A DNA stretch of 64,000 nt from Romanomermis culicivorax. Lineage: Eukaryota; Nematoda; Enoplea; Mermithida; Mermithidae. The stretch lies in contig CAWUHX010000007.1 of the NCBI GenBank assembly GCA_963922205.1, positions 2,542,001 to 2,606,000 of the forward strand, given 5' to 3'. The first letter of the stretch is position 1; each line of letters starts with the position of its first letter. Below the pieces are notes generated by a model, which searched no databases, was not told the origin of the DNA, and worked only from the letters and a program-made list of their open reading frames with translations. A program made the position numbers and the translations under genes. This document shows, in pieces, positions 8,541 to 36,861 of this stretch.

Positions 8541-8544
8541 ATAG

Positions 8545-9127
8545 TGTTGTATCTTGGTCTGGTCGGGGCGGTGATGATGCAGCGTGAGCAGGATTGGGAT
8601 TCCAATGTTGCGTCCTTAATGTACGTGCTTCCCACGCCCACGTTTACCCGATAAGTTAATTACTAATACTTAAACCCCAACACTAATTATCCCAACAATT
8701 AAAGAAAGGTCTACTTTCTTTAATTGTCTCCCTGGTTGCGCAAGATTGAAAGGCGATGGATTTTCTACCTTTTAATGTTACGCAATAATGTACAAAACTT
8801 ACGTGAACAAAAGGGAGACGGGCGAGATGAAAAATAAAAACACTAAATCAACTCCCACGCATGGGCGAGAAAGAGAGAGACGAAAAAGGCGTGGTGGGAG
8901 GTGGCAAGTATGTACTAGCGGTGGCCAACGGGGCACACAACTAGTAAGAAAACATAAAAATTATAACACTAATAATAGCAATAGAGAGAGACCAGCGCAC
9001 GCGTACCGACCTGCGCTACAGTAAGATGGCCACTAGTGGTCTGCGTTGCTCTCTCCACTTGCCACCTGCGGGCCTCTAACGCGCTTTGACAAAACGATAA
9101 AAAATCGGCGGAAAACACACTACAACA
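8545..9127 (-). repeat. 3' LTR
   Basis: The + strand reads TGTTGTATC...CACTACAACA, so the terminal TG..CA dinucleotides are intact. It is the same length as the copy at 22125-22707. It contains a conserved hairpin at 8695-8727. Confidence 0.95.
8695..8727. other. conserved LTR hairpin (3' LTR copy)
   Basis: A perfect 14-bp stem (ACAATTAAAGAAAG with CTTTCTTTAATTGT) encloses a 5-nt loop. It is identical in the other LTR at 22275-22307. The related LTR at 62291 has the same stem at 62662-62690 with one compensated base pair. It is probably a structured RNA element of the transcript; its role is unknown. Confidence 0.7.
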
Positions 9128-9781: not shown

Positions 9782-10440
9782 TCAAGGCGGTAGTTGTGTG
9801 GCGATTAGTGATGGGCGATCGGACGGCATTCCTGTTGGCGGCAACGGTCGCGGTGGTGGTAGGTTCCACCGGGCAGAAAAGTCGTGCCGACGCAGCAGGG
9901 GTGCGGGGCGATCCGTCTCGCTGTGATACTGCAGATAGATTTGTTGAATGTCGGCGATTTCCAGCGGTTGTGGAAACGGGGCGTAGCGTGGATAAGCCAT
10001 CCAACTGTCTATGAGTCCGACAGCGGTGTTATAGGCTTGTAGCAGACACGAAGGGTTATCCAAACCGTGGGCTTCGTATAAGAAAAGGGTCAAGTGGGCG
10101 GTGTGAACGGCGTCAACGACGCCGAGCTCCTCAGCCCAAAGGCCGGCGACCCATTTCAATATCAGAGTGGCCACGTCGTGCGAGATGGGCGGTTGTTGTT
10201 CTTGATATGCGGGGCGGTAATGGTCTCGAAAATACTGGTACAACGGGAGCGAAGCGTTCGTAGCACGGATGTGCACGGGCATGATGATGCGAATACCGAG
10301 GTGGCCGAAGAAGTTGATCAGAACCATTTCGTGCAGCGTGCGCGGCGAGAAAAACTCGACGGCGGGATCGATATTCGGCGGGTAGCCAGGTGTTACTAGC
10401 GTGACGCAATGTGGCGTATTGGTGGTTCGGAAATGCGTAT
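9782..10440 (-). CDS. last large accessory ORF, unknown function
   Basis: The ATG-started product is 181 aa (from 10327), but the frame stays open upstream to about 10440, adding some 35 residues. It is largely helical in character, with a hydrophobic N-terminal stretch, several aromatic residues in the middle ([20 protein letters not shown]) and a proline-rich tail. The EAHG..AYN segment has a likely relative in the decayed copy at 1998-2237, so the gene belongs to the accessory cassette. It is in a different frame (+1) from the ORF before it, so it is made either by frameshift or from its own spliced message. No known domain is recognised. Confidence 0.55.
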
Positions 10441-10526
10441 AATTCGGTAATCACGTGGCTTCGCTAGGCAACCGGGGTTTGATAGTTGGTGCGGGAATTG
10501 GTGGCGGAGGAGCTCCAAGAACCGGC

Positions 10527-11606
10527 CTAGTGGCGATGATCACTGGCGGCTGTTTGAACGCAGCAACCGGAGCCGACGTCCGGGCCATAGGGGGCAGCGA
10601 CGTGGTGTGGGTGGGTTACCGTAGTCGTAGCAGCAGTTGTCTGAACTGTAGGCGTTTGCGATGTGACCGTTGGCGGAATCGTGGTAGCAGTGGACGTGGC
10701 GGCATCCACGTCCATAGGAGGCGGTGGAAACGGGACTTTGAACTCATCTTTCGGCGGGTTTTTCAAAGCTTCCAGACGACGTTGGATCTCAGCGTCCCTA
10801 TGCAACGGGCTAATAAAGTCCGTCAACTTGGGCAGTGACCGGCGGAACTGGCGGCGATGTGCCTCTTGGTAGAAACCGGTCGAACGTACCTGGCGTGTTT
10901 GCTCGCTTTGAGTACGGTGGGGCAGTACATCATTGTGGCGTTCGTGTTGACGACTATCTTGGCTGGTTGGTTGGGGTTGCTTTGTTTCTCTACGGTGGCG
11001 ATCATCACGGGAGTGTGACTCGTGACGTGACCGGTGGCTATCGGGTTGATGAGCAGGTGGTAGTTTCGTTGCCGGCGCTGCTGTTTTGGAGGAGGCGACT
11101 TTGGGTTTCGGCGTTGACGTGGCGTGCGAAGATCTTTCAGCCTCTTCACGGGCTCTCTGTTTATCGCGTTGTTCGCGGCGTCGAGTTGTACGTTCGCTGG
11201 GCGTTCTGCCGCGCTCAGCACGCGAAGTGCTGGGTGGCGGCGTTCGCCGCGTGCTCGGTTCGTCCGTTGTTCGTGTTTTGTGGGATTTGCGGTACGCCGA
11301 TTCTTCCTGAAGATGTTGTTTTCGCTTTGTTGAGTGTTCATACCGGCCGGGTCTTCGGATAGGATTACCATAGCGATCTAGAGCCGGCGCGGACGTGCTG
11401 GGTGCCTGTGGGGTTTGAACATCCACAGGCGCCGTCGGCGGCACTAGAGTTGCGGGTTGCGGCGGTTGCGGCATCGGTTGCGGTTGCAATGTGATCGGCG
11501 GCGGTAAGGGAGCCGGTGTTTGCACGACGGGTTGTACCATTACCGTAGCCGTTTGGGCGACTTGCGGGACCGGGGCGATCAACGTCGGTGGAGGCAACAA
11601 AATTCA
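10527..11606 (-). CDS. Pro- and Arg/Ser/His-rich accessory ORF
   Basis: About 357 residues in the same frame as the exonuclease ORF and the acidic ORF, separated from the latter only by one TGA (11604-11606) with no in-frame ATG at its start. It begins with P/Q/V-rich sequence and moves into a long, very basic, Arg/Ser/His/Thr-rich stretch. It ends with a [12 protein letters not shown] motif and T-rich sequence. The composition suggests a disordered nucleic-acid-binding region, perhaps a nucleocapsid-like or packaging function. This is inference from composition only. The lack of its own start supports its being the C-terminal part of one large accessory polyprotein. Confidence 0.55.
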
Positions 11607-12290
11607 TTGTATCTCGTCCTTTAGTGCTGCTGGGAAATCTTTCCACTGATGTTTAGGGAACAACATACTGGGCGGCGGTGGCGGAAAATGATACGCGGCG
11701 AGCGCTGCGGCCAAGGCGTCCCATTGAGTAGCTGAAATAATCTGTTGCGAAAAATGTACGGGAGCACTATACCTGGCTGCGGCAACGGTGGCAATTATCA
11801 GAGGTCCCGGCAAAACTGCCGGTGTCGCCAAATATATTCGTGGGTCCACAGCGGGTGCCGTGGTAGGTATCATGGCGGCGGGTTCTATAAGGGCGACGTC
11901 CATAGACGTAGATTGATCTACCGTGCTTTCTTCGGGTATATCGGTCAACATTTGTTCTGACGTCATCATTTCGGAATCAATTGTGGTGGGTTGGATGGGA
12001 GTAGATTCGTCCATCGGAGCCGGAGCAATATTGGAAATTTCGTCGAGCGTGAGTTTCAAGAAATCGGAGATCTGCGCAGCAGTTGCCGTTATATCAGATG
12101 GTGCAGCGGACATAGGAAGGGCCGATGCGTCTGTTGACGGCGGCAGCTTCGCTATGTTGAGATCGAAAACTGGCGTATCGAGTAGCTCATCATCGGCAGG
12201 TTCGACTTCGACATCGATGGGGGGTTCGAGTAGTTCATCGGCAGTGAGCGTTTGCACCGAAGCCGTAGTCGGCATGGGGTACGCGTACAC
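11604..12290 (-). CDS. acidic/Pro-rich accessory ORF
   Basis: A 228-residue product, strongly acidic in its first half (EVEPADDELLDTP and similar) and proline/alanine-rich at its end (HFPPPPPSMLFP). It continues the exonuclease frame after a TGA at 12342-12344. The sequence between the two (about 51 nt) is open in frame, so exonuclease and acidic segment may originally have been one protein. No enzyme motif is visible. The tail has a W-x-DFPAAL segment that could be a short folded motif. The decayed left-hand element has a similarly composed segment at 3468-3929. Confidence 0.6.
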   Translation of the reverse strand: MYAYPMPTTASVQTLTADELLEPPIDVEVEPADDELLDTPVFDLNIAKLPPSTDASALPMSAAPSDITATAAQISDFLKLTLDEISNIAPAPMDESTPIQPTTIDSEMMTSEQMLTDIPEESTVDQSTSMDVALIEPAAMIPTTAPAVDPRIYLATPAVLPGPLIIATVAAARYSAPVHFSQQIISATQWDALAAALAAYHFPPPPPSMLFPKHQWKDFPAALKDEIQ

Positions 12291-12341
12291 CGGCGCGGGG
12301 AACGAAAAACGGTTTTGAAAATCGATGAGCGCAATAAACGA

Positions 12342-14252
12342 TCAGTAAAAATGGAAACGGCTGTGTGGATTGGCCGTATAGTCGTGTTCATCGATTTCAA
12401 TTTCTTCGACGGACGTTTCCATGTGGAAGTCTTCGATGAACACAATCGGGCGCAAGGCAAACCGATTGCAAATATACGCGCCGGGATCGCTGGAGAAACT
12501 CAGTTCTCGTTCCGGGATGCGGTTCGAGTTGGGATTGCCGTCGCTGCCATACCACATGCACTCGTAGAATGCGGCGCGTATTTCTGGTTTCATCGATTGA
12601 GCGTGGCGAAGAAGAACGTCGTTGACGGAGGCATATTCTGCGGTGGAACACGGCAATGCAAGAAGCGCAGCCAATGGCATGAAAGAAGTCAGCTTTCCGA
12701 ACCAGTCTCCGTCCACCTGTAAAAAATTAAGAATGGTGGAGGGGTGATAACGATAATGAGTACCATAATAGGTGCGCTCGCGTAGGGGTTGATCGGCGGC
12801 AACGCGTTCTGTCCAGAGATCATCAACCTCGTGATGAAGCGGCGGTAACGCGGGATCATTGTATGGGATCGGATCGCGGATGGCCAACTTGTATATCGGG
12901 GAAACCGGAAAGTTGAGCAGCTCGATAATCCGGTCGGTGAGGTTGCTCTTCATGGCCGACGTGACGGCCGCTTGGAGGCGTTTGGGATCGTCGAACATGG
13001 ATCGTGGTTTGAGAGCCGGATCTTCATCATCGGAAACGTCCGGTGATTTGTTCCATTCGTCTTTTTGTTTCTTTTTCTTTTTCTTTGGCGCTTTCGGAAC
13101 GGGGAGAAGTTTCGGGTGAGTTGTGCGCGTCAAAGCTTTGACGTCCCGGAAGCCATTGGTTACCGTTCCTAAACAAAAAGACCGACAGTGGTCAGACGCT
13201 GTGCAATCATACATGAAAAATTTGTAAGCCAAAAGAACTTCGTCTCGCATAATCGTGGGTAAGGCGACTTGCGATGTCGTCGGGTATACTCGGTTGGTGT
13301 AGTCGGGGGGCAAGGCATCCGACAACGCGACGTTGTTAAAGGTGGCGATAACGTATTCGGCGAGGTGGTCGATTTCGGCGGCATCCAGCGAGTCGTGGGG
13401 CAACAACGCGGGGGCGTTGTAAACCTCGGGAATGAAACCGTAGCGACCAAAAGCCAAAAACAACAACAGCGGATAGTAGGCGTCGAGGGCCCCGTAGGCA
13501 AGGACGTTGGATTGCAGGAACGACGTGGTCGGGTTGTTGAAGAAACGCAGGGCTGCTGGGAAGCGTAGCGTGAGCTTTGAAACGTCCAGCGCCCACATGG
13601 CGGAAGCGGTTGCTTTTAGCGTACATTTTTCGGGGAAGAAGCCAATTCGTCGCCCCAGCTCGTACAGTGGCGGGGATATGTCGATGTTTCGAATAACGCG
13701 GTACACGTCGAAATGAATGGCTTTTACGACGGGATCTTTGTTTTTCTTTTGCCAATTGGTCCGGAATTGAGTACCCAGAAGAGCATATATTCCCGCCCAG
13801 TCGTCGGCTCCATCGAAGGAAATTATGATGGTGTGTTCGCCGTCGACTAGGGAGAATAGCGCGGTCCAGTCTTCCGGGGTAGCGGTGAACGTTTCGAAGA
13901 CAAACATCGTGCCGTTCGGGAATGCAAGTTGAACATACCGGGGGTAGCTAGACGCCGTGGGGTCGGCTGGCATGGGCACGGTGAACTGGAAATGTTTTAT
14001 ATCAGCGGCCATGATCGATTCGGTGTCGAAGCCGACCAGCGTATAGCCATGGAAGTTTGGTGTGGGTGGGGCGGCCAAGGCCTGCCCCAAACTTCCGGAT
14101 GAAAGAAATATCGGTGGCGGCAAGACATTCGGGGGTCGTGCGTACATGGATATGTACCACGACTCCAAATCGGCGATGCGAGTCAGGCGTTTGACATTGT
14201 TTTCTAAACAAGAGCGAGCGCGATATTCATCATGTGACACATGGGGCACCAA
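12342..14252 (-). CDS. DEDDy 3'-5' exonuclease-like protein
   Basis: A 636-residue ORF downstream of pol. Near the N-terminus it has the signature of RNase D/WRN-type 3'-5' exonucleases: VGFDTES with D76 and E78 (motif I), a beta strand reading YVQLAF and then FVFET, a D150/D151 region (IIISFDGADDW, motif II), and AYGALDAYYPLLL with Y253 and D257 (YxxxD, motif III). All four acidic residues and the motif III tyrosine are present, so the fold is predicted to be active as a two-metal exonuclease on DNA or RNA. A lysine-rich segment (about residues 390-400) could be a nuclear localisation signal. The remaining 300 residues resemble nothing I know. It lies about 1 kb after integrase and is probably expressed by splicing. 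It ends at TGA and the frame reopens immediately afterwards. Confidence 0.85.
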   Translation of the reverse strand: MVPHVSHDEYRARSCLENNVKRLTRIADLESWYISMYARPPNVLPPPIFLSSGSLGQALAAPPTPNFHGYTLVGFDTESIMAADIKHFQFTVPMPADPTASSYPRYVQLAFPNGTMFVFETFTATPEDWTALFSLVDGEHTIIISFDGADDWAGIYALLGTQFRTNWQKKNKDPVVKAIHFDVYRVIRNIDISPPLYELGRRIGFFPEKCTLKATASAMWALDVSKLTLRFPAALRFFNNPTTSFLQSNVLAYGALDAYYPLLLFLAFGRYGFIPEVYNAPALLPHDSLDAAEIDHLAEYVIATFNNVALSDALPPDYTNRVYPTTSQVALPTIMRDEVLLAYKFFMYDCTASDHCRSFCLGTVTNGFRDVKALTRTTHPKLLPVPKAPKKKKKKQKDEWNKSPDVSDDEDPALKPRSMFDDPKRLQAAVTSAMKSNLTDRIIELLNFPVSPIYKLAIRDPIPYNDPALPPLHHEVDDLWTERVAADQPLRERTYYGTHYRYHPSTILNFLQVDGDWFGKLTSFMPLAALLALPCSTAEYASVNDVLLRHAQSMKPEIRAAFYECMWYGSDGNPNSNRIPERELSFSSDPGAYICNRFALRPIVFIEDFHMETSVEEIEIDEHDYTANPHSRFHFY

Positions 14253-14411
14253 ATCGAAAGAGCAAAATGGGAATTAAAGGATGATATAAACGTGAAGCAG
14301 GAGGGAGGCGGGGTGTTGCTTTCGATTCGTTAGGAGGGCACATGCTCGGAGAAGACGTTGGCTTGGGCGGCGATGTCACCTTGATGGGCGCATTTGGACA
14401 ACTGGATCGGG

Positions 14412-14762
14412 CTACGATAGCGAGATAATGAGAGTTGTCGTATGCGGAAATAAAAGCAGCAGCTGGTTGTGGACTGAGGAGGCCACAACTTGACGATGGC
14501 GGGGATCGCGGCAGCTGACCATGGGTCTCTGGCGCAAACTACGGAATGGGGGAGTTACCCATGGGGTCCCAAGCAAAGAGCATGCAAGAATAAGCAGCAA
14601 AAGCATAAAATGGAGAAAAATACCGTCGCAGGCGAAGCTTAGATCGTTTTGGTGGGGCTGCTGCTCGGCCCAACGTACGTATCGTTCGTTGACGTTTATC
14701 GATTCAGGATACGGCCGAGGCTCGTCGGCCGTGGAGGTGGATCCAGTCGACGGCGTCATCAT
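14412..14762 (-). CDS. small ORF with one membrane segment
   Basis: A 116-residue frame with a single strongly hydrophobic stretch (about residues 49-68, FLHFMLLLLILACSLL) flanked by polar sequence. It sits between pol and the exonuclease ORF, where envelope genes lie in env-bearing elements. It is far too short and has no furin site, cysteine pattern or fusion-peptide-like region, so I do not call it env. It may be a chance frame. Confidence 0.25.
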   Translation of the reverse strand: MMTPSTGSTSTADEPRPYPESINVNERYVRWAEQQPHQNDLSFACDGIFLHFMLLLLILACSLLGTPWVTPPFRSLRQRPMVSCRDPRHRQVVASSVHNQLLLLFPHTTTLIISLS

Positions 14763-15269: not shown

Positions 15270-18230
15270 CTATTGCCGGCGAGAAGTGTGGGGCATACGT
15301 GGTCCACCTTGTTCATTTTCGAAAGCGTCCTTTGCCGGTCGTGGAACAAACGGTTTTAAACATGTTATGGAGACGGTCTGCAGGCGGCTGGGCGCATCGA
15401 GTGAGTCGATTGTGACAACATTTTCGGCTGCGTGGGAGGCGTCCGTGATAAGAAAAGGTCCGATAGAGTCGGGTTGAATTTTGTTGGCTTTGCGCATGTT
15501 AGTTAAAAGAACCAAGTCGTTGATGACGAACTCGCGTTTTCGGGCTTTGCGATCAAAGTATTCTTTGCTAGCGGCGGCTGCGGCATCGAGGTTTGCTTTA
15601 ATTTTTTCGTGCATTTTGATTTGTGCTTGGGTGAGGATATGCTGATAGGCATCGTAATTCAACGGCAAAGTGAGTCGGCGGGCGCAGTCGTAGTCGAAGG
15701 TGATGCGCGGCTCATATCCTCGTAGTAAACTGAAAGGCGAGTGACGGGTAGCTGTGTGCGGCGTGGCGTTGTAGGCGAACACGGCGTAGGGCAGGTAGCG
15801 CTCCCAGTTGTCTGGATTGTCGGCGGTATACTTTTTTAGCTGGGCGATCAATGTTTGATTGAAACGTTCGACCATTCCCTTGCACTGGGGGTGGTATGCC
15901 GTCGTTTTAACCTTCCGAACTTTGAGAAGCTCGCATATATCTTGCATAAGCTTTGATGTAAAACATCCACCTTGGTCGGAGAGGAGGACAAGCGGGCTAC
16001 CGTGCGTAAGGACAACGTTGTTGATGAAACATTCCACTATTGTTGAAGCTTTTTGATCTGGTATCCGGTGCGCGGACACGAATTTTGTAAAGTAATCCTG
16101 AAAAACAATAACATATGGGTGTTTCTCACCTACAGGGGAAATGTTGACGATGTCGGTTGCCACGATTTCAAATGGGTGTTTGGGTTGAATTGGCAGTAGT
16201 GGCGGGGGCGGTGACGTGCGGGGCATTGTTAGTTGGCAAATTTTGCAAGTTTTAATCCAATCTCGAACGTTTTCTTCCATGCCGGGCCACCAAAAGTGAG
16301 CTTTAATTGCTGCTAGCATGTGGTTTGTTCCTTGATGATTCAAAATTTTTGCGCCATGGAATTGGTGAAGAGTTTGGTCGACCATGGAGGCGGGTACGAC
16401 TAATTGCTTGACCTCTTTAAGTTGACGATACAAAATTTGGTCTTGGAGGAAGAAAATCGGTGGATGTTTGGCGACGTTATCTGTTCTGAGGGTGGTGACG
16501 ATTTTTGTTATGGCTGGGTCCGCCGCTTGAGCTTTCAAAACTTCCTCGTGGGCAGCTATCGTAATGACCTCTGCCGGGGGCGGTTCGTGGTCGACAGCTG
16601 CTGGCATTGAATTAGAGAGTGTGGGTTGACTGATTGTCTTTTTCGTCATTGCATGGGTGATGGCGTTGATTTCGGCGTCGACTTTCGTGGGCGGTGAGGC
16701 CCCTGCTGGGCGTGTTTCCGGTACTGTTAAGTCGGTTTCCGTAGTTGCACCAGCAGGGTGAAAATTCTCATGGAAAATGGTGGCGGTCAAATTTTCAGCG
16801 GTCTGGATTGGGGATTTGTCGCGGTCGTCCTTCCTGGACAGGAAATCGGCACAAGCGTTGTCTTTTACCTTAATGTATTCAACTTTATAATCGTAGTCCT
16901 GGAGGCTAATGGCGAAACGTTGGAGGCGTGAGTTTCGATGTTTTTCGTCTTTGAGCCATTCGAGCGGCTTGTGATCGGTGCGGACAATAACTTTTTGGCC
17001 GTACACATAGTGGCGGTACATCCGGAAGCCATAGACAATGGCGAGGCATTCACGCTCAGTTGTACTGTAGCGGGTTTCGGCATCAGTGAGTATGCGACTA
17101 TTGTAGGCAATGACCCATTGATCGTTTCCGTTTTCTTGATACAAAATTGCTCCAATGGTGGTTGTGCTGGCGTCGGTTTGGATAACGAATTGCCCTTTGC
17201 CATCGTAAACTGGGTAGCGGAGAAAAGGCGATGACGTAAGGGCGGTTTTGATACCTTCGAATGCGGCGTGGTGTTCGTCCGTGGCGATATATTGGGCGTC
17301 TTTATGTAGAAGTCCGTACAAAGGACTGGACAATGTTGCCAAATTCGGGATAAAGCGTTTGCACCATTGGACTAAGCCTAAAAAACTTTGCATATCTTTT
17401 TTGGTCTTTAGGAATTCGTATTCGGCGATAGCTTTGACTTTCTCCGGATCGGCTGCTATTCCGCGAGCGCTAAGAAGATGTCCCAAAAATTTGACTTGCG
17501 GCGGCAGGAATTCGCATTTGTCCGGCCGAAGCGTAAGGTTGGCTGCGCGGAGGGCGTCCAAAATGATTTGTAAATGTTCCAAATGTTCTTCAAACAAATT
17601 CGAGAAAATAATAATATCGTCAATATAAATGAGACAAATCTTCCAAATATACGGGCGGAGAATTCTTTCCATTAGACGTTGAAATTCGGCAGGCGCGTTT
17701 TTCAGGCCGAACAGTAAAACTTTGAATCGAAACAAACCTTCTTGGCAGATGAAGGTTGTTTTATCGCGGGAGTCCGCGTCGAGGGGTACCTGACAATATC
17801 CGGCTTTGAGATCGAGCGTGGTGAAAAATTTCGTGTGTCCCATTGCGTCCAAATAGTCGTCAATGCGCGGGATCGGAAATTCGTCGCTTGGCGTGACGTC
17901 GTTTATTCCATGGTAGTCGACAACGGGTCTCCATGAGTCATCTCTCTTTTTTACCAAGAACAGCGGTGCGGCCCAGGGCGAGCGGGATGGTTTGATAAAA
18001 TTGTTGTCGAGCATTTCTTGGATATGGCGGCGTACAATCGGTCTTTGCTCCATTGCGGCGCGGTAATAATGGCGGGAAATGGGTTTTGCGGTGCTGGTGT
18101 CGATACTGATGGTCAACTCGCTGGTTATAGTTGGTTTGTCGCTGGGAAGGCTGAAGACATCATGGTGTTGTCGAAGCATCTTGAGGGCTTTTGCTTTTTG
18201 CGCGGCAGAAACGTAAGTTTTTTCGGTCAT
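15270..18230 (-). CDS. pol: Pol: reverse transcriptase, RNase H, integrase
   Basis: A 986-residue ORF with no internal stop. The reverse transcriptase core (about residues 40-270) shows LDLKAGY (139-145) and YIDD (202-205). RNase H follows with TDAS (D353), TERE (about 391-394), RTDHKPL (D419) and ACADFLSR (D462). The integrase has an HHCC zinc domain (H622/H625, H632, C662, C665) and the DDE triad (TDIV D693, SDQGG D752, VERFN E788), then a C-terminal domain with NDLVLL and a GPF motif. The order places it with Ty3/gypsy-like elements. The ORF begins in the +1 frame relative to protease with a 71-nt overlap, so synthesis needs a frameshift (or an old indel disrupted a fusion). It is the best-preserved gene of the element. 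Confidence 0.95.
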
Positions 18231-19404
18231 TTTGTTTAGGGCGTACTCCAGCTTTTGTTGTCCAGCTTTGTTGTTTGTGTGCGGCTGGCTCGTGGTCAGT
18301 TATGTAGCGGTCGGCGGCAGCGGTTGCTATCTGGCAGTTGGCGTGGGTTTCGGAATACTCTAGTGTGTGCTTTGCCATTGCGATGAGCTGATTTGGTCTG
18401 AGTTTGATGCTGTTTGGTGTGTTGTTAATGAAGAGGAGCGGACAATGACCGTTGGTGATGTTGACCACTGCGGTTTTGACTGGAAGTTCTGCGGCTACGT
18501 TATCGGTGGCGAGGGGTTGTACGATCACGTCGGGAATGGTTGCCGATGTTGTGGGAAAAACGATACCTTTGACCCATTGTTGACAGTGTGGCGAAATCGA
18601 GACGGAAACTTGGGCGACGAGAAAGATCGGTTCGGCGAGCTCGGTAACCTCCAGCTGCCGTGGGGGCGGTTGGTGTGGACTAGGTTGAGCCTGCCGTATC
18701 GGTTGTTCAACTTCGATTTCTTCGGGTTGGCTGAAAATATCGGATTTATCGTCATAGAAACTTACTCGTTCGTCCTCTGGTATTTCTTCTAGGACATTGT
18801 TGTTGGGGGTGTTCAGGAACAATTCCGTTCGAGGGGGGACCGAGGCGATTACCTTAAGCCGCAGTTTGACGTCTTGAATTTCTATGTAATTGTCTTTAAA
18901 ATTCAAAATGGCGTGGATATCTGGGTGGGCGAGGAAATCGGTCGCGATGATACATTGGTCGTTTCCATCGTCATCGAGGATTACGCATTTGATCATGTGC
19001 TCTCCGAAGGCGGATTCCATTGTAACGACTACCGGGCCATGAGCATTGACAACGGCGCCATCGGCTACTTTGATTTTTCCGCAAATCGGGAGTTGGAGCG
19101 ATTGTTTGTCGAAAGCGCGTTTGACTAAGCCTGATGACAAAACGGAGCATTGGGCACCTGTGTCGATGAGCGCGTGTGCTTTAACGGCTCCAATTTTGAT
19201 TGGAATTTGAAAGGCTCTCGTGGAAGCGTACTTGCGGACAAAGGACTTGGAAGATGGCATAAGGTTATCAATTTGACAGATGGACGAGCGAATGTGGCAG
19301 GGGTCTTGAAAAGCGCAGCCCGTTGCGTTCCAACAGACTATGCTGGGGCTAACGATGGGTGTGGCGGAAGCGATTTCTTTGGATGGGATAACCATATTGG
19401 CCAT
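18160..19404 (-). CDS. pro: retroelement aspartic protease segment
   Basis: A 414-residue frame. The catalytic motif [11 protein letters not shown] has its aspartate at about residue 81. A later ATDFLAHPD segment matches the conserved second half of retropepsin-like proteases. It is in exactly the same frame as both gag segments upstream, separated from them only by stop codons, so gag and protease were probably one polyprotein. The last 71 nt overlap pol in another frame. The ATG at 19404 is unlikely to be a genuine start. Residues beyond about 200 are a Pro/Glu-rich linker towards RT. Confidence 0.85.
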
Positions 19405-20079
19405 TGATGTCGATTGATTGTTAATGCGTGTTTCGAGCGCGGGTATTGACGCTGTATTCGGTGCAGGAAGTGGGGGTAGGGTTATCTGTAACTCTGAAGA
19501 TTGAGAACTAGCGCGCGATGAATCTGTCGGCGTCGTGACATATGGGGCCGGTACAGCATTGTAATGGATATGTTGTTCCCACGGTGCCAGAAATTGATGG
19601 TTCGGGTAAACGGCGTAGGTATTCTGAACAAAATCATGTGGGCGCTGTATAGAGTTACCTTCGTAAAAATGGTTTCACGTGCCGCGGGCGTAGTTTGTGC
19701 CTCGTTGGGGCGGTCCTCTGCAGCGGGGTCGCCTATCGCATTGTCCACGAATGTCGTTCGAATTGGTTCGGAAATTGGCTTGCCGTGGGTGGGCAGCGTA
19801 ATTTGGGCGGTTTGATTCAAGTCGGGTTAACTGTTGAGCGTTTTGCCGCTTGAGCCAGACGCAATCTTCGGTGTTGTGGGTGCGGGATTTGTGGGCATCG
19901 CACCAAAGACCTGTAGGTTGCGTCGTGCGTGCGGGGTCTCGGCTGGCAGATCGGTCGAAGCGATTGGTGTACGGCTCTCTGCTTTGAGATTGATGGCGTG
20001 GACTTTGTTGCCTGTTGTTGGTTATCGTTTCATCAGGGCGTTGTCGGGATTTTCGTTCTTCATAGTCGCGGTCGTATCA
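19405..20079 (-). pseudogene. gag: Gag nucleocapsid segment with CXXH zinc knuckle
   Basis: Reading through the TGA at 20077-20079, in the capsid frame, gives a basic R/Q/S-rich region. It is followed by a zinc-knuckle-like WCDAH..THNTEDCVWLK motif (C-x2-H-x5-H-x4-C type, as in some gypsy-like Gag proteins). A second in-frame TGA lies at 19675-19677. The frame then stays open into the protease. The knuckle is too well formed to be chance, so this is the missing nucleocapsid part of Gag, cut off in this copy by stop codons. Confidence 0.6.
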
Positions 20080-21264
20080 CTGAATTAATTGCTCCAATCG
20101 TATTTCCGTGCGCAGCCGCTGTGGGGGCGGTGGCTCAATCGCTTGTGGTTGAAAGGAAACGAATTTAGTGGGTGGTGGTGTCGAATTTTGTGGCCTGCGG
20201 TCCGTAGATGGAGAGCGCTCGCGGTAGCGGTGCTGGGGGCGATCCATACTGCGGCGGCGTTCAAAACGGCGATCAAATGGTTGCGGCGACTTCAGTGGTG
20301 GTACATCCTGATCGGCTTTATTTACAAGGATGGGTCGTTCCCCCGTTCTGATTTCGGCTTTGGTTGCATTGAGGACACTACGGGCTTTAGCTACGGCGTC
20401 GGCCAATTGTTGGACATTTGTGAAGCCTTTTGCTTGTTCCCCAATTGTTAGTTGATAGAAAACAGGCATTTTGGTCAAAAAGGTGTCAATTACTTGTTTG
20501 TGCCGAAAAGTTTGATCTTCATGCTGATACAATAATTGTACATAAGTCATTACCTTACTCAGAAACGCAGCGGGTTCTTCTCCAACTTCTGGGGTGATTG
20601 ACGCGAGTTCGCGTTTGAGAGTCATCGGGTTGCAATCGGGAGCCAATTGGAACATGAGTAAGTGTTTGGCGTCTTCGTACCGCGTCATATCTTGGATCAT
20701 ATCGCTCGGCGTATCGTGGGTGAGTCGGCGTAGGGCACTCATCTTTACGTGGTTGGAGGCGTCGTAGCCGAACTCATTTTCCAGGCGGATGAAGAAACGT
20801 AACAGGCGTTTATTTGTTGCGGCGCCGTCGATAATCAACGGGTGCATGTTGTCGACGATTGTTTTGATGCGGCTATCTTCCTCACGATGAGACGTGCGCC
20901 GCATGTCGTACTGAGGATTCGGATGTTCATAATAATCCTCTGGTGGATAATCTGAGAAACCGAAATGGTTTGCCGCGGGGGGTGGGCGTCTTTGAAGCGC
21001 GGAACGGTGTAACCCTTCATCGGCGCGCGTAGTGCGGGCGAATTCGTTATTATACAGGGTATCCGTTGATGGTGCTTTGGGTTTAACTTGATTCGGTAGC
21101 CTGCCAAAGACTGGAGCCGGTTCAGTTTCACGGAGAGTTTGGTTTGGGATATAAATATCTCTTGTTTCCTCACCGTGAAACCGTGAGGACACCAGCGGCG
21201 GTCTTGGTGTGGGCGGATTGCGCACATTAGTTGCGGCGGCAGTTGTAGAAATCAATTGTTGCAT
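20077..21264 (-). CDS. gag: Gag capsid segment
   Basis: A 395-residue frame. After a disordered N-terminus, residues about 125-310 form a helical retrotransposon-capsid-like region ([49 protein letters not shown]). An Arg-rich linker with [15 protein letters not shown] follows, in front of the zinc knuckle. It is in frame with the N-terminal segment (ending at 21268) across a single TAA followed by CAA ATG. It assembles the virus-like particle in related elements. Confidence 0.75.
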
Positions 21265-21267
21265 TTG

Positions 21268-22221
21268 TTAGGTGAGTGCAGCGAAACGCGCGTTAGTGGC
21301 CTTGGTTTGTTCCTGGATTTCACGTTGGACGCGTAATTGCTGGGCTTGGAATTGGTCGGAGACGGCGCCGATAATTTGATCGATCGTTTGTACCGTAGGA
21401 ACATTGTTGGTTATGCACGCGGCGGCGGTGTTGAGTTGGTCCAGTGGGTCGCCTGCTTCAATTCGAAAATTTTGAACTTCATTGGCATTTGCAATGGCTA
21501 GGCTGCTGCGGTGATTGTTTACTGGAGCACGGGTGGCGGATGGGGCTTGCGGTGGTTCGATATTGACAAAGGATTCGGAGGAATCGGTTCTGGCGACAAC
21601 TTGGTCATTGTTACTTCGGATCGGGGCACTTGGCGGCAGCATTTGCGATGCAGGCAGCGCGTTAGGGCAGTTTTCGGTGGCGGTACGGAGGTTTTGATTT
21701 AGCGACCTCGAGGGTTGAGAATTGATCATTGCCGCAGTTGCAGGGATGAGCGGTACTTGCGGTTGTGCCGTCCCGTCCAGCGCGGGAGTACTGAAATTAG
21801 ACAAGGGTGGATTATGGGGCAGGAGGCTTACCGTGGGTACCGCTGTCGATTGCGTAATATTTGACGGTCGCGGCAACAGCATTTGGTCAAAACTTAGGGC
21901 GCGGCGTGCTGCTGTGGCGGCGTTCGGAGAACTGGATTGCGACGGAAAGCGGGTGAAGTCCGGCGGTGTGTGGCTTACCGTTGGCATCTTTTTTTGCAGG
22001 GTGTAATAACCTCTTTTGTACCCTTTGGCGCAGCTGCGGCGGGGTCGAATTTTGGACTCTTTGAGCGTTTTCGGATGCAACGCAACGGCGGGGAGAGGCA
22101 GCGTACAATCCAAGCGGTCACCAGTGTTGTATCTTGGTCTGGTCGGGGCGGTGATGATGCGGCATGAGCAGGATTGGGATTCCAAGGTTGCGTCCTTAAT
22201 GTACGTGCTTCCCACGCCCAT
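21268..22221 (-). CDS. gag: Gag N-terminal segment
   Basis: A 317-residue frame starting with an ATG inside the 5' LTR. The more plausible start is the internal [11 protein letters not shown], because the LTR ATG is GTG in the 3' LTR and overlaps a putative splice donor. The product is P/S/T/N-rich and disordered, ending in a helical segment ([25 protein letters not shown]). It ends at TAA (21268-21270). The next codons CAA ATG open the capsid segment in the same frame, so this was probably one Gag. Confidence 0.6.
22106..22123 (-). promoter_or_regulatory. primer-binding site
   Basis: One nucleotide after the end of the 5' LTR the sense strand reads TGGTGACCGCTTGGATTG. It begins with the TGG needed to pair with a tRNA 3' CCA. 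The matching tRNA would end CAATCCAAGCGGTCACCA; I cannot say which isoacceptor this is. Confidence 0.65.
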
Positions 22222-22707
22222 GTTTACCCGATAAGTTAATTACTAATACTTAAACCCCAACACTAATTATCCCAACAATTAAAGAAAGGTCTACTTTCTT
22301 TAATTGTCTCCCTGGTTGCGCAAGATTGAAAGGCGATGGATTTTCTACCTTTTAATGTTACGCAATAATGTACAAAACTTACGTGAACAAAACGGAGACG
22401 GGCGAGACGAAAAATAAAAACACTAAATCAACTCCCACGCAGGGGCGAGAAAGAGAGAGACGAAAAAGGCGTGGTGGGAGGCGGCAAGTATGTACTAGCG
22501 GTGGCCAATGGGGCACACAACTAGTAAGAAAACATAAAAATTATAACACTAATAATAGCAATTGAGAGAGACCAGCACACGCGTACCGACGTGCGCTACA
22601 GTAAGATGGCCACTGGTGGTCCGCGTTGCTCTCTCCACTTGCCACCTGCGGGCCTCTAACGCGCTTTGACAAAACGATAAAAAATCGGCGGAAAACACAC
22701 TACAACA
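22125..22707 (-). repeat. 5' LTR
   Basis: A 583-bp copy of the LTR at 8545-9127 with about 14 substitutions by my reading (9 transitions, 5 transversions) and no length difference. It contains the hairpin (22275-22307) and, on the sense strand, GGGTAAAC near 22222-22230. That block is conserved as GGGTAAG in the LTRs at 468 and 62740 and looks like a 5' splice site. Confidence 0.95.
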
Positions 22708-22711
22708 ATAG

Positions 22712-23134: not shown

Positions 23135-23803
23135 AACAGACTATAGTTTGATGTATTAATTGCTTCACAAGCAAACATTTTACACTCTGCAAGAAAGTTT
23201 AAAGAGTCAAAAATTAGAAGGAAAAATGAAGAAAAATCCTGCTTAGAGGCACTCCCGAGCACCTTCACCTATCATGCTACAGAATTTTATCTTTTTATTT
23301 TTTTTCATACATTCCTACCTACAGTAGCTGTGAAATCAACATCACGATTTGAATACCCCTTGAGAAGCTACAGAGATCCAAAGAATGCAAAACCCTGAAA
23401 ATTGCTCAAAAGTCAATATTTTTTTTTGTATTTTTTTGCATTTAGCATTTTTCATTTGTTAAGGAAGTTGGTTCAGTATCTTGATACTAGAACCAGAAAA
23501 TAAGGGGCATACATCATCTGAAAGCACCACTAAAATGCCATCATCATGTGTAGCAACAACTCTTACAATTGAAAGCATGGAAAGTCAAGTGACAGAAGCT
23601 ACTTCAAACATTGTACCAGTGTAAGCATGTTTCATCGAAGATAGTATACATAATCCAGGACCATGTGGTACTATCAATGATGAAACTTTACTCCATCTAT
23701 TGTCGGAATTAGCAAGCATCCTTATAACAGATTCATATCCCTATGCACCTCGCATTGAAACAGAAGCGGAATTTATACTAGCAAGAGGAATGCTGTATTT
23801 GAT

Positions 23804-24563: not shown

Positions 24564-25916
24564 ATGAAAAGATTGGCTGAATCACCTAGTTTGAAGAAGA
24601 CATCTGTATTCTCAAAAAGTGATGAAAGTTTTTATTTCACCAGTGATGTGGATGAAACACCTTCATCTTCAGAAAGATTTACTGTGGGGATTGTAAAGAA
24701 GCAAATTGGCGCCATTGCTGAAGAGGTTAAAATATCAAACATTCACTTCACCAATAATTTTCACCATCTTTCTGAGGCTACAAAACTCAGATACACTGCA
24801 GCAGCAGCATCATTTATGAGGCTTGTATTTACATTTATAGCCTCAGATGCAGCCGGCAAATTGCAAAAATATGCCTGTAAAGAACATACTTCAACTTGGC
24901 TACAAGGAGAGGATTATAAGCTATCAAGAATAATGGAGACAATTGCAGAATCCTTCTGCATTGGCCAGTCACCATCTATCAGAAAGCATTGCCTAGGAAT
25001 GGTGACACCTTATGTTTCTTTTGGTGAAATCCAAATGTATCTACTTGGTGTTAGTATACACAGCAACAGAACATCCAGGTTTTTAGCAAGGAAGTACAGA
25101 AGTGGTACACTAACAAAGCCTGAGGTACAGCAAATCCGTTATGAACCAAAGAAAGTCAACAGCTTCATTTCCTTCATTACCTCACCCCATATCATGCCGG
25201 AGTTGCCATTTGGAACTTCTACTGCTACACTTTCATCTGGTGAAAAAGTTGATATTCCGAAAATGATGCGAAGCATCATCAATAAAAGAATTGTAATGTT
25301 ATACTAGAAATTCCTTGAGGAGAGGAATGAAGATCATTTAATGATGAGCCGAAGCTCTTTACTGCGAATCCTCAGCTTTTGCACTGCTTTCACAAGGAAG
25401 TCTGTGTATGGCTTAGATTATATCATTTTTTGGGCAACTGCATCAATTGACAGGCTCATCAAGATGATCACAACCTTTGGTACACCACTTGGCAAAGAAT
25501 GGATCTCAAGCATTGTAGTCAAATTAAAAGATGCAAAGTTTTACCTCAAAGGTGACTATGGTTTACACATAAAACAAAGTTCACATATTGCCAAACATTG
25601 TTCTTCGTTTGCCCTGAGTGATCCAATGGATAAGGACTTACAGAGTTTATGTGACGATCACAACCATAATCTGCAATGTGACAACTGTCAACAAATTAAT
25701 GCTGTCATTGAAGAAATTCAACTGAAGCTAAATGATATGGCTTTCAGTAATCATTTGGACAGAGTAGAAAATGAATACTTAACTCAAGAAGATGCAAAGA
25801 ATGTGCTGGAATGGCAGAAACATCAATTGCGATCTGTGCCTCAGGACCTAGCTCGAACAGAACTCATTGGGAACCTAAAAATTAATGAAGTATATGCTCA
25901 GTCGATTGGACCATGA
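24564..25916 (+). pseudogene. transposase-like protein, uncharacterised family
   Basis: Two open stretches (24564-25307 and 25341-25916) are in the same frame, separated by one TAG at 25305-25307, giving about 450 readable residues. The second part has STLLRIL-like sequence, KSVYGLDYI and a KDAKFYLKGDYGLH segment, then an HCSSFALSD motif and a cysteine/histidine-rich CDDHNHNLQCDNCQQ cluster. This pattern is familiar to me from repeated, unnamed metazoan proteins, but I cannot name the superfamily. It is bracketed by the long inverted repeats, so a transposition role is inferred. Confidence 0.5.
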
Positions 25917-26824: not shown

Positions 26825-27380
26825 CATCAGTTGGCACCTCAGCATGTTAGCCTCAAGGATGCTCTGATACAAAGCTACAGCTTTGTAATATTTTCAGTAA
26901 GGATGATTTCCTAACACCCCAGGAAAACAAAAAAGTAAACAAAAATAAGTAAATAAACAAAACAGTAAAAAATTGGTCCTGCAGAATATAACTTCTGACG
27001 TCACTTTCAGCAAATTTTCTACCTATGCTCCTTATTTTCTGGTTCTAGTATCGAGATACTGAACCAACTTTGTTAACAAGTGCAAAATGCTAAATGCAAA
27101 AAAATGCAAAAAAAAGACTTTTGAGCAATTTTCAGGGTTTTGCTTTCTTTGGATCTCTGTAGCTTCTCAAGGGGTATTAAAATCGCGATGCTTCTTTCAC
27201 AGCTACTGTAGGAATGTATAATCAAAAGAATAAAAAGATAAAATTCTGCAGCATGTTAGGTGAAGATGCTCGGGAGTGCCTCTGAGCAGGATTTTTCTTC
27301 ATTTTTCTTCATTTCAACCTTCTTACAGAGTGTAAAATGTTTGCTTGTGAAACAATTAATACATCAAACTATAGTCTGTT

Positions 27381-28329
27381 GGACGGGCTAAAATATAGGA
27401 AAATAAAATTCTGCAGCTTCGGATGGGAAGGTGCTTAGGAGTGCCCATAAACAAAATTTTTTTAATTAAGTGTAATATGCAATTATTTACTGTAAATAAT
27501 ACATCAAAAAAAACTTATTCTCTCCTCTAAAATGAATATTTATTTATCAAATAAGATCAAGCCGATCTCGAAATATCACTTGGCTAGCAAGATCACTGAA
27601 AAATCCCAAAAAATAATCAATTTTCAAATTTTGGCATACTGTAGCGGTGCGAATTTTTGTTTACAAGCAAAACGAATGGTACCATGAAACAGCGCGTGAA
27701 ACTACCCAAAATATCTGGTTTTGAGGTATGATTAATTTTCAACTTATCATAGGGAAAGTAGAACCTCTCAGAAATCGTGTCTTAAGGCCTCCAGTTCCTG
27801 CACGCCCCACATTGGGTATAGCTTCTCCAAGCTCGATATTTCGCCCCATGCATCTACTTCAGAGTCCCCCAGATGACACTTCTTTTTGAAAAAATGACTT
27901 CAATCCAATTACACCACGGCCCAAAGACCCGGGAACGCCCAAAATTTAGCAATTTTGTTATATAAAGTTTATGGCTTCAAAAAAATAATTGTTTGCATAA
28001 AATTTTTTGCTCTATATTTTTCTAAGCACTGTACATTCATGCCCACATTCTGCATGCATAAAACCGTAAATGAACTGAGTATATGGGGTGCATGTGGTCA
28101 TTGTGCCTCAACATTGCCACCATCCCAACATTGCCACTATCTCATCATTGCCATGATTTCATATGAGGGCATAATATGCTGACATGATTTTGCGAAGCAA
28201 ACGGTAGTCTGTTTTTTTCAAATGCTTATAACCGAAAAAAGATGAAATGAAGTGTACATTGCTTGTTCAACTATGGCGCGGGCGCACTCTATACTGTATT
28301 ATGGGAAAAAACGTGTTAATGAAAGTTAT
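27381..28329. other. AT-rich gene-free spacer with repeat fragments
   Basis: No gene. Positions 27905-27990 match the lead of the composite repeat (GGCCCAAAGACCCGGGAACGCC, then TTGTTATATAA). Positions 28105-28152 hold several copies of an AACATTGCCA-type word, seen in the opposite sense at 39370-39440. A MITE-type end (GTAGTCTGTTTTTTTCAAATGCTT region) is at about 28206-28230. Confidence 0.4.
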
Positions 28330-28522
28330 TTATACTTATTTTGGATATACTGTAGGAAAACTATGCTCCCTGAGCATCTGTTCTTTATGAAACAGTGTCA
28401 GCTGTTTTTCACTGCTACTTCACTTTGGGTGCTTTTTGCTACAGCATAGTCACTTTTGCTCCTTGGCCCTGCATTTCTCCTCATATCTCACAAGTGCTAC
28501 CCAGCTTGGTTTAGCTCATCTC
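28330..28522 (+). repeat. DIRS direct repeat, copy 1
   Basis: 193 bp, starting TTATACTTATTTTGG and ending just 4 nt before the gag ATG (28527). It is about 94% identical by eye to 31920-32112. It resembles one unit of the split direct repeats of PAT-like elements, or a shared leader. Confidence 0.75.
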
Positions 28523-28526
28523 GATT

Positions 28527-31818: not shown

Positions 31819-31919
31819 GCTCAGAAAAATGTACTTTACCTCCTCCTAATAAATTCACGTTTGACTTAGAATTTACAAAATAAGTGTTTTATGTTCGGTT
31901 GCATAGCATTAGAACATAA

Positions 31920-32112
31920 TTATACTTATTTTGGGTATACTGTAGGAAAACGATGCTCCCTGAGCATCTGTTCTTTATGAAACAGTATCAGCTGTTTCTC
32001 ACCGCTACTTCACTTTGGGTGCTTTTTGCTACAGCATAGTCGCTTTTGCTCCTTGGCTCTGCATTTCTCCTCATATCTCACAAGTTCTACCCAGCTCGGT
32101 TTAGCTCATCTC
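31920..32112 (+). repeat. DIRS direct repeat, copy 2
   Basis: Second copy of 28330-28522 in the same orientation, placed between the methyltransferase-like end and the recombinase. It is internal to the element, as expected for the inner copy of split direct repeats. Confidence 0.75.
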
Positions 32113-32281
32113 AATATCCCACCTCCCTCCCTCTATCTCTTACTCTCCTCTCTCCCTTAACTTTCTTAACTTACCCCTTGTTTTAGACTACTTCGATTTG
32201 ACTAATTACACAAACTTGCAACTACTTCTCGGCAATCCCAACCTATAATATCATCGTCAAATCCATGATCGAAGCCTCGCG

Positions 32282-33088: not shown

Positions 33089-34411
33089 TATTCGGGCATA
33101 AGGGCAAACTATGGGGTGCCTTTTGTCATTTCGCCTCTATCTGCAAGTGGTGCTGATGGTTCCCCAAAAACACGCAAAAAACGCACTTTTTAGGCCCCCC
33201 AGTTCCACCATGCCCAGCAATGGGTGTGCCATATCCAACCTCCATACTTCAGCCTAAGCATCTTGGTGGTGAAATCTCGAATGCAATTTTTTTATCGTTT
33301 TAAAATATGGCCTCAATTCAATTATATGGTGGTCCAAAGTCCCGAGAAACGCCAAATTCCCCAATTTTGTTATATAATACTTATGGCTTCAAAAAAATAA
33401 TTTTTTGTGGCACAATGCACCACTATTTTTTTGCACTTTCAATTAAACCGGTAGCCTTATTGGGATTTTTGGACTGTAAAAGTTTCCGACCATTGGGAAT
33501 TCGATGGACGCGGTTACTTTACATGAAAAATTATCCCGTGTGTAAACAAGCATAGTTCCGTGATTTTTCAGTGGAGGGAGTTTTCAACCGCAGGGAGTTC
33601 AATAGATGTGGTCACTTGACACAAAAAAATTATCCCGGGTGTAAACAAGCGTATTTCCGGAATTTTAATGAGGAGGGGTTTTTGACCACAGGGAATTTGA
33701 TGAATGTGATAACTTTACACAGAATTCATTCCAGGTGTAAACAAATGTATATTTGTGATTTTTCGGTGGAAGGGGTTTTGGGCCACAGGGAATTTGATGA
33801 TTGTGATCATTTTACCTAAAAACTATCCTGGGTGTAAACAATCGTATTTTTGCGATTTTTTTGTAGAAGGGGTTTTCGACCACGGCGAATTTAATGAGTG
33901 CGATCACTTTACGCAAAAAATTATTCCGGGTGTAAATTTTTCTTCGGAATGGGTTTTCGACCATGGGGAATTTAATGAATGTGGTCACTTTACACACACA
34001 CAGAATCATATTGAGTGTAAGCAAATGTATTTCTGCAATTTTTGAGGGAAGACGTTTCTGACCATGGGGAATTCAATGGATGCAGTCAGTTTACACGAAG
34101 AATAGTCATTTGTGTAAACAAAGGTATTTCTGTGATTTTTTGGGTTGAGAGGTTCTAAACCATGAGGAATTCGATAGATATTCGATAGGAATTTGATACC
34201 CTTCAGTCTGTTTACAAAGTTTTTTAAGTACTATGCGATTTACACATCATTTAATTTTACCTAAAGCGGGGAATTCGTAGCTTGAAGATTGTTTTTTATT
34301 GTTTTTCGACGTGAAGATGACCAATTTAAAAGTTCAATGTGCTTCCATGAAGATTTTCGTGCATGGTTGAGGCCCACTAAAAAGAGGTGAACTAGTTTAT
34401 TATAGGCGGCG
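33089..34411 (+). repeat. composite repeat, copy A
   Basis: The lead block (33089-33490) contains GGGCATAAGGGCAAACTATG, the CCATGCCCAGCAATGGGTGT block and the GTTATATAATACTTA block, all shared with 51350-51740. It is followed by a roughly 97-bp tandem array, then a tail (34200-34411) ending CACTAAAAAGAGGTGAACTAG. Unlike copies B and C, no inverted-repeat element follows the tail. Confidence 0.65.
33495..34180 (+). repeat. ~97-bp tandem repeat array A
   Basis: About seven degenerate units. Anchors TGTAAACAA (or close variants) occur at about 33541, 33640, 33736, 33833, 33931, 34016 and 34112, giving spacings of 85-99 bp. Each unit also has GGGGAATT, GATCACTTTACAC and GTGATTTTT words. Units open in one frame by chance, but the period is not a multiple of three, so it is not protein-coding. 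Confidence 0.75.
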
Positions 34412-34481
34412 CGATAGCGTCAACCTATAATATACTTGGCCCCTTAATTTCATGTCCCCCCTCCTTCTAGAGCCAAAATGG

Positions 34482-35406
34482 TAAAGCCGTAGGCATACTT
34501 AGCGGCAACGGGCGAAAAAGTCTGCGGCTCGCACACTTTTTTGCGGTTTTCAAAAATTGCGACCCGCAAGTCACCCGCAAAACCGCAATGCGGTTGCGGT
34601 TGGCAACCCGCAACCGCATTGCGGTTTATCGACCCGCAAAGAGTTCTCGAGTGGAGTACTTTTTGCGGTTCTGGCAGCCGCACTCGATACAGTATATGCC
34701 GTTTCGCGCTGAATAACACTGAATACCTGATCTTTATCAACTAGAAAACTCAATTATTTCCAGAATTTGCTTTGTCCAGTGTTTTTTTTTTCTGCAAAGG
34801 AATCTTTTGAGGAGAAAAATTCGGGAACAAAGAATAAAATTTATGCAAGGTTCTCATTGTCGAAAAAATTTTCGGGAATCGGAAACTGAAAAGATGTATT
34901 TTGGTGAACACTGTTTTTCCCCCCGGCTTTTTCGTCAAATGGCGATAGGGGTAGAAAATTTTCCCCCAATTTTCTAAAGTCTTTTTTCGCTTAAAAATGC
35001 TCATAGACGGTTTATTTTAGTGTTTTTAAGCTTAAAACATGATGTTTTTAGAGCGGTTGATTTTTTCCACATGAGAACCGGACCCAAAATTTTTTTTCCT
35101 CATTTTCCAAAAATTTTCCCCATTTAACGTTTGTAATGTGCCTACCTACGGATGCTTTTCCATGCAATTAGGAGCATACCCAAGCATTTTGACGCTTTTG
35201 GATTCGGAAACCTACAACCTTGCATCTCTTAAGTAATTTCCGGTTCGAAATTGCGGTTAACTATGCTTACATTTGAGGTTTTCCGGTTCCGCATTTTTGC
35301 GGAACCGCGGGAAAGTATGCCATTGTGAGAGCCGCAACCGACCCGCAATTACGGGTCACAAAATTTGCGGCCGCAAAAAAAACGGTCAAGTATGCCTACG
35401 GCTTAA
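34482..35406. mobile_element. foldback element with TAA duplication (919 bp)
   Basis: Inverted ends AGCCGTAGGCATACTT (34485) and AAGTATGCCTACGGCT (to 35403) are flanked by TAA on both sides. Both arms are rich in TGCGGTT/AACCGCA words. The interior (about 34740-35270) is non-coding. It splits composite repeat B. The 3-bp TAA duplication fits PIF/Harbinger-type MITEs. Confidence 0.75.
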
Positions 35407-35699
35407 GGGTCCCCAGTCCTACCATGCCCCACAATGGGTGTGCCATATCCAAGCTCCATACTTCGGCCGAAGCATCTTGGCGGTGCAATCTCAAATGCGA
35501 TTTTTTATCTTTTTAAAATATCGCCTCAATTCAATTATATGGTGGTCCAAAGACCCGGAAAACGCCAAATTCCCCAATTTTGTTATATAATACTTACGGC
35601 TTCAAAAAAATAATTTTTTGCAACATAATACATACACTACTAATTTTTTGCAGTTTCAACTGAACCGGTAGCCTTATTGGGGTTTTTGGGCAGTATCAG

Positions 35700-36640: not shown

Positions 36641-36861
36641 CTTGTTTATGGGAATTCAATGGAAATCTTCACTTTACACTCTGTTTATAATGTGTTTTAA
36701 GTTCTATGCTGTTTAAACATCTTTTACTTTCACTGAAAGTGAGAATTCGTAGCTTTAAGATTTTTTATTGTTTCTTTGATGTGAAAATGACCAAATTTAA
36801 AACTTCGATGCAGTTCTATGAAGGTTTTCTCGTATGGTTGAAGACCACTAAAAAGAAGTGA

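Follow-up and report, generated by a model that had tools for sequence, protein, structure and literature searches.

A multi-copy ORF3 with a DEDDy exonuclease-like domain in Ty3/gypsy retrotransposons of the mermithid nematode Romanomermis culicivorax

Introduction

A DnaQ-like exonuclease is counted among the well-known accessory domains of long terminal repeat (LTR) elements in an opinion paper (PMC6338049), and the closest described cases come from bdelloid rotifers, in which the Juno and Vesta LTR elements as well as the Athena elements carry a third open reading frame (ORF3) for a DEDDy exonuclease, acquired at least twice (Rodriguez, Kenefick and Arkhipova, 2017; PMC5408684). For these rotifer ORF3s, 3′-end processing was proposed and expression from spliced messages was stated, and the authors saw neither a clear-cut relation to copy number nor a significant deviation from neutral evolution (PMC5408684). 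DEDDy ORFs were described again for Terminons in a review of 2019 (PMC6431247). Here we report an ORF3 with a DEDDy exonuclease-like domain in a Ty3/gypsy LTR retrotransposon of Romanomermis culicivorax, a mermithid nematode parasitising mosquito larvae (PMC10879605). The element lies in a stretch of 64,000 nucleotides (assembly GCA_963922205.1, contig CAWUHX010000007.1, positions 2,542,001 to 2,606,000), called the window below, and feature coordinates are positions within it.

The original prediction, made from the letters of the window, had put this ORF forward as a candidate for an undescribed system, a claim that does not survive comparison with the rotifer literature, in which DEDDy ORF3s are already published for bdelloid LTR elements and Terminons (PMC5408684; PMC6431247). 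No report of a DEDDy ORF in nematode LTR elements appeared in the titles or abstract openings listed, most subscription journals lying outside the search, and the word exonuclease is absent from the excerpted text of PMC5348765.

Conservation of the exonuclease-like domain

The ORF of 636 residues begins at a TTG and occupies 12342..14252 on the minus strand, with the frame running from stop to stop over 12342..14273 (643 residues), and the numbering of this longer frame is used throughout. The motif residues first named as D76/E78, D150/D151 and Y253/D257 of the 636-residue ORF are present as numbered and correspond to D83/E85, D157/D158 and Y260/D264 of the 643-residue frame. The DEDDy exonuclease-like domain extends over 13374..14051 on the minus strand (residues 75-300), with D83, E85, Q115, D158, Y260 and D264.

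A search of the R. culicivorax genome (359,112,060 bases in 595 contigs) gave 69 scored matches to this ORF from 3,783 first-look candidates, a lower bound for the size of the family. Of the 68 matching places outside the window, 48 were compared in detail. In all 48 the integrase stands upstream on the same strand and ends about 1.0 kb before the exonuclease ORF. These counts bear directly on the idea that the ORF is a host gene fragment captured by the window copy only, the probability of which is negligible in view of the integrase in 48/48 copies; a fragment unique to the window copy is ruled out by the 69 matches. Three protein searches, two of them limited to about 8,000 candidates, placed the family in R. 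culicivorax only among the matches listed, with all 33 UniRef proteins listed as relatives of the ORF coming from this species. One of these, P0006, finds a best genome match that is only 74% identical, for which reason its copy or subfamily seems to be missing from the assembly; used as a query for divergent members it gave the same family.

The D-x-E, D and Y-x3-D motifs stand in order and are conserved in 45-48 of the 48 copies, with D83 kept in 48/48, E85 in 46/48, D157 in 47/48, D158 in 48/48, Y260 in 48/48 and D264 in 45/48. Among the 33 UniRef proteins, which are fragments and were counted where the site was covered, D83 is present in 7/8, E85 in 8/9, D158 in 14/16, Y260 in 12/13 and D264 in 10/13. 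Mean pairwise dN/dS (the ratio of nonsynonymous to synonymous divergence) is 0.081 in residues 75-300 (dN 0.038, dS 0.469; 1,176 pairs, window included) and 0.099 both in residues 301-395 and in residues 420-643. The integrase of those copies gave 0.053 for the core and 0.107 for the C-terminus (1,128 pairs), such that the exonuclease region is constrained about as tightly as the integrase. Since the copies share source elements, the selection measured is that acting on the sources.

Sister families and the link to RNase D

Searching the genome with PF01612, the family of RNase D, WRN, Rrp6 and mut-7, gave 91 places at E <= 0.01, all over the cut-off and two of them only with frame neighbours (curated cut-off 23.6 bits). 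The twelve places examined belong to families F2, F3 and F4, which account for seven, one and four of these loci, with a PF01612-type ORF following the integrase in F2 (L058, G000:C69:274400-279700; L059, G000:C344:249300-254300), F3 (L065/L071, G000:C429) and F4 (L061/L070, G000:C130). The two F2 ORF3s compared with PF01612 scored 41.7 bits (E 1.4e-10) and 51.2 bits (E 1.7e-13), and the F4 stretch L061 matched at E 7.2e-8 (32.9 bits) over profile positions 20-166, which is most of the profile; the F3 stretch by itself scored 22.8 bits (E 9.1e-5), slightly below the cut-off, and in a profile comparison with hhalign F3 matched F2 at E 1.7e-35. Three PF01612 fragments at G000:C158:182213, 187991 and 193769 showed an exact spacing of 5,778 bp and represent a tandem array that includes part of an ORF or gene of this kind.

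Homology of the window family to PF01612 beyond the motifs themselves is found through F4. In a single hhalign comparison the two families aligned with a probability value of 75.8 (E 2.3e-5) over 222 columns, with FDTE/IDAE, DDW/QDI and YGALD/YATLD in register and D83, E85, D158, Y260 and D264 matched to the same residues. The score of 40.7 was reached by none of 200 column shuffles (maximum 23.3), and reversed columns gave 13.0. Against F2 the window family scored 28.2 compared with a shuffle maximum of 27.8 (0/200). Of the possible bridges F4 alone carries weight, because F2 and RNase D are barely above shuffles and F3 is not above them.

Several observations weigh against an exonuclease reading. 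Pfam gave no PF01612 match for the window ORF, and no significant direct Pfam, NCBIfam or PDB match was obtained for the window family, the sequence and profile searches of solved structures likewise yielding nothing useful. Among 37 stretches that are stop-free over the exonuclease region (the window and 36 of the 48 copies), one matched PF01612 at E 0.042 and the other 36 did no better; one UniRef relative gave E 0.13 over motif III only, at the right profile position. A weak match to DUF4350 was present in 33/37 stretches (best E 0.0014), the window stretch (13344-14216) scoring 12.2 bits where 30.4 bits would be needed to pass the cut-off. In the hhalign comparison with RNase D the score was weak at 23.2 against a shuffle maximum of 21.2 (0/200), with a smaller earlier profile giving 24.1 when the best of 60 shuffles reached 21.9, and the comparison with F3 was no better than shuffles, 2/200 of which reached its score. 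The AlphaFold confidence score (pLDDT, predicted local distance difference test) was 40 both for the 643-residue frame and for residues 60-310, and Foldseek with the model of residues 60-310 returned no match at E <= 0.001 and 155 at E <= 10, a result given no weight here. To these may be added the five substitutions at E85 or D264 among the 48 copies, with more among the UniRef fragments, and a stop inside the 643-residue stretch in 19/48 copies. The DUF4350 signal may reflect a common strand-helix pattern. A search of viral contigs gave no match; four phage records found with an RNase D query play no further part here.

The sub-threshold DUF4350 signal and the failure of PF01612 to exceed its cut-off directly could be read to mean that the motifs arose by chance in a retroelement ORF3 that is no exonuclease and has, for example, a DUF4350-like or orphan fold. 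We regard this as very unlikely, however, given that five motif residues fall in register with F4 in an alignment that no shuffle equalled, and that in related elements the equivalently placed ORFs of F2 and F4 exceed the PF01612 cut-off. The original assignment of an RNase D-type DEDDy exonuclease is thus upheld by way of F4 but not by any direct PF01612 match over the cut-off; the assignment is supported through the sister families and not directly, and in our view the F4 bridge inside the same genome decides in its favour.

The sister ORFs lie in a similar setting, judged from the flanks of two F2 loci (pol being scanned with Pfam on L058 only), one F3 locus and one F4 locus. Upstream and on the same strand, L058 and L059 of F2 have RNase H and an H2C2 integrase domain, with a BLASTP E value of 4e-20 to the window pol, the H2C2 of L058 standing at 24.8 bits, barely below its cut-off of 25.5. 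L071 of F3 has RNase H, H2C2 and rve domains that each exceed their cut-off, and L070 of F4 has H2C2 (E 1.7e-16) and a sub-threshold rve, together with a frame that resembles RNase H by eye and has no Pfam match. By their integrase sequences the four families are LTR-type elements. In integrase or pol the window family is 48% identical to F4, and F2 is 39-49% identical to F3, compared with 22-36% across the pairs, and the exonucleases pair in the same way. Because the exonucleases follow the integrase pairing, each pair of sister families probably received its exonuclease gene by descent together with pol. The domain is probably an old part of these elements, passed on with pol at least within sister pairs, and no fresh capture of a host gene.

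In F2 the seven copies (21 pairs) have dN of 0.003-0.19, with dS saturated beyond calculation in 11 pairs and exceeding 1 in another 5, and constraint is relaxed in the subgroup L064/L066/L067 (dN about 0.06, dS about 0.17). Where the F2 and F4 loci are covered, they keep the motif I-III residues. L065, the single F3 copy examined, has a serine at the expected motif III tyrosine (YSAALDA). This serine and the loss of E85 or D264 in some copies agree with a further explanation, in which the domain is an inactive DEDD derivative retained for RNA binding, as in Maelstrom or EXD1, and such derivatives are known (PMC5408684). Set against it are the active-site residues retained in 45-48 of 48 copies and the motif residues of F2 and F4, and we think it decidedly doubtful that the domain has lost its activity.

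Extent and probable start of ORF3

The ORF first noticed is only a part of ORF3. The 643-residue stretch is stop-free in 29/48 copies, and in 48/48 the frame continues beyond its 643-codon end, 39 of them being open through the whole of a 166-codon stretch. In 29/69 genome matches the frame stays open for 1,500 codons or more, the longest being 1,746, with 25 of these 29 free of stops inside the match. In the window copy, ORF3 is divided on the minus strand into four pieces after a small, probable first exon. The first large piece (12342..14273, 643 codons stop to stop) holds the exonuclease-like domain and, after it, a run of six lysines (13068..13085, residues 397-402) that may be a nuclear localisation signal. 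The second piece (11604..12341) is Pro/Thr-rich and lies in the same frame past an in-frame stop that is absent from the 48 compared copies, and the third (10527..11603), past a second stop and again in the same frame, is Pro/Thr/Arg-rich (R 10.9%). The last piece (9782..10450, 222 codons) has no Pfam match and is joined to earlier parts of ORF3 in the UniRef gene model P0026, which runs into it from the second half of the 643-residue frame.

The start of ORF3 is probably to be found in the gap between integrase and the large frame. A frame of 46 codons (14625..14762, minus strand) sits there, read from 14762 to 14625, with its ATG in 48/48 copies and a GT donor one base past its end in 48/48; an in-frame stop interrupts it in 4/48 copies and a net frame shift in 1/48. 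The UniRef gene models P0008 and P0014 include this frame joined to later parts of the exonuclease frame, and within residues 1-24 of the 643-residue frame there is no ATG common to the copies. Because the ATG and GT are kept, the gene models join the exon and the large frame lacks a common ATG, ORF3 probably starts in this small exon and continues by splicing, the use of the 46-codon frame as an exon being probable.

Architecture of the element and other repeats in the window

The element measures 14,163 bp and reads on the minus strand from 22707 to 8545. Its LTRs, at 22125..22707 (5′, TGTTGT...ACAACA) and 8545..9127 (3′), are 583 bp each and identical at 569/583 positions (97.6%; Kimura two-parameter distance 0.0245), and the 4-bp target duplication CTAT is found on both sides, at 22708-22711 and 8541-8544. 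Within the LTRs the ORF lies, as first described, between the integrase and the 3′ LTR. The pol ORF (15270..18299, minus strand) encodes reverse transcriptase (RT), RNase H (RH), H2C2 and the rve integrase (IN), its best solved relative being the Ty3 Gag-Pol (E 6.1e-109), and is preceded by an ORF for a retropepsin-like aspartyl protease (PR; 18160..19674, minus strand; PF13650, E 3.9e-6). The PR-RT-RH-IN domain order, the closeness to Ty3 and the paired LTRs with a short duplication place the element in Ty3/gypsy (Metaviridae). The frame in the gag position (20077..22239, minus strand) has no match to a gag family in Pfam and consists of two abutting pieces in the same frame (21268-22239 and 20077-21267) divided by an in-frame TAA at 21268. 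The element was originally called intact, which holds for the LTRs and the CTAT duplication but not for the gag-position frame, which is in two pieces, nor for the ORF itself, which is less than the whole gene, all 48 copies reading on past its end.

Other repeats are present in the window. Long inverted repeats at 23135-23511 and 27024-27380, 83-94% complementary, surround an ORF of 247 residues (24564-25307) and resemble a DNA transposon with long terminal inverted repeats. A second pair of about 510 nt (42359-42871 and 44797-45308), 94-95% complementary and 1.9 kb apart, may be a foldback or terminal inverted repeat element. Direct repeats of 199 bp (28327-28525 and 31917-32115; 94%) lie around plus-strand ORFs of 458 and 321 residues, possibly a small LTR-like element, and a large diverged duplication (33189-38333 and 51451-55169) has pieces 77-95% alike and arrays with a spacing of about 97-99 bp.

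Possible roles of the exonuclease

The explanation that we consider probable is that ORF3 encodes a large accessory protein whose N-terminal RNase D-like DEDDy domain acts 3′-5′ for the benefit of the element. Such a protein, for which other copies have open frames of up to about 1,650-1,750 codons, would be translated from spliced RNA and would carry, C-terminal to the domain, the lysine run and then the Pro-, Thr- and Arg-rich tails. Two divalent metal ions would be bound by D83, E85, D158 and D264, with Y260, and nucleotides would be removed 3′ to 5′ from RNA or single-stranded DNA, the trimming most likely serving to finish the 3′ ends of the element's own RNA or cDNA. A nuclear or nucleic-acid location is suggested by the six-lysine run and the Arg-rich piece (10.9%). 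The presence of at least 69 copies in one family together with integrase-like purifying selection argues that the enzyme is useful to the element, a point left open in the study of the rotifer elements (PMC5408684).

The main rival to an element-serving role is counter-defence, in which host small RNAs, namely Dicer-type small interfering RNAs (siRNAs), would be shortened or degraded by the enzyme, or a host trimming nuclease would be blocked by it, shielding the element from silencing. In keeping with this, a non-core enzyme is strongly conserved, the load of transposable elements (TEs) is very high (PMC10879605), and R. culicivorax is described as having no PIWI, PIWI-interacting RNAs (piRNAs) or 5′-triphosphate small RNAs, an RRF-3-type RNA-dependent RNA polymerase being kept in clade I nematodes (PMC4323106). 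With PIWI and 5′-triphosphate small RNAs absent and the RRF-3-type polymerase kept, siRNAs would be the main small-RNA threat. However, without piRNAs the small RNAs best known as targets are missing and piRNA trimming is excluded, Dicer-type siRNAs presumably remaining as the target, and the same facts are explained by an element-serving role. Counter-defence appears unlikely. It also seems quite improbable that the full form of this idea is correct, with a standing DEDDy exonuclease selected in whole mermithid Ty3/gypsy lineages (two by integrase, comprising four families), forming one polypeptide with a large protein that binds nucleic acids, and employed as a weapon against siRNA silencing in a PIWI-less host.

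The occurrence of DEDDy exonuclease ORFs in four families of a nematode indicates that they are no peculiarity of rotifer LTR retrotransposons, and supplies a separate set of sequences for studying how a 3′ exonuclease benefits a retroelement. The case in the window is less novel than was originally held, yet firmer and broader than a single copy could show.

Comparison with known systems

Ty3 itself (Metaviridae) resembles the window element in pol, its Gag-Pol being the best solved relative; to our knowledge Ty3 has no exonuclease ORF. The domain shares motif order and spacing with RNase D, WRN, Rrp6 and mut-7, with F2 and F4 over the profile cut-off, but the window family stays under every curated threshold and is fused to a long low-complexity ORF3. 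The Terminons, which are rotifer Athena Penelope-like elements, are alike in being retroelements with DEDDy 3′ exonucleases among their accessory ORFs, but they have a Penelope-like RT, are telomeric and lack an LTR-type integrase, whereas the window element is Ty3/gypsy with an integrase (PMC6431247).

The closest likeness is to Juno and Vesta, with which the window family shares an LTR retrotransposon with an extra RNase D/DnaQ-like ORF after pol, found in more than one lineage, and an ORF3 produced from spliced messages in rotifers and probably so in the nematode. Juno, Vesta and TelKA carry a dUTPase, which in Juno and Vesta lies between PR and RT, whereas Pfam detected none in the PR or pol ORF of the window element. 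They differ further in host, the window family being that of a nematode, and in ORF3 size, the window copy spanning about 1,500 codons and other copies exceeding this. Copy number is at least 69 in the window family, whereas TE families of A. vaga have on average 1-2 full-length copies each. A DEDDy ORF3 in an LTR element was already known; what is new is a nematode DEDDy ORF3 that is multi-copy, under purifying selection and part of a much larger protein.
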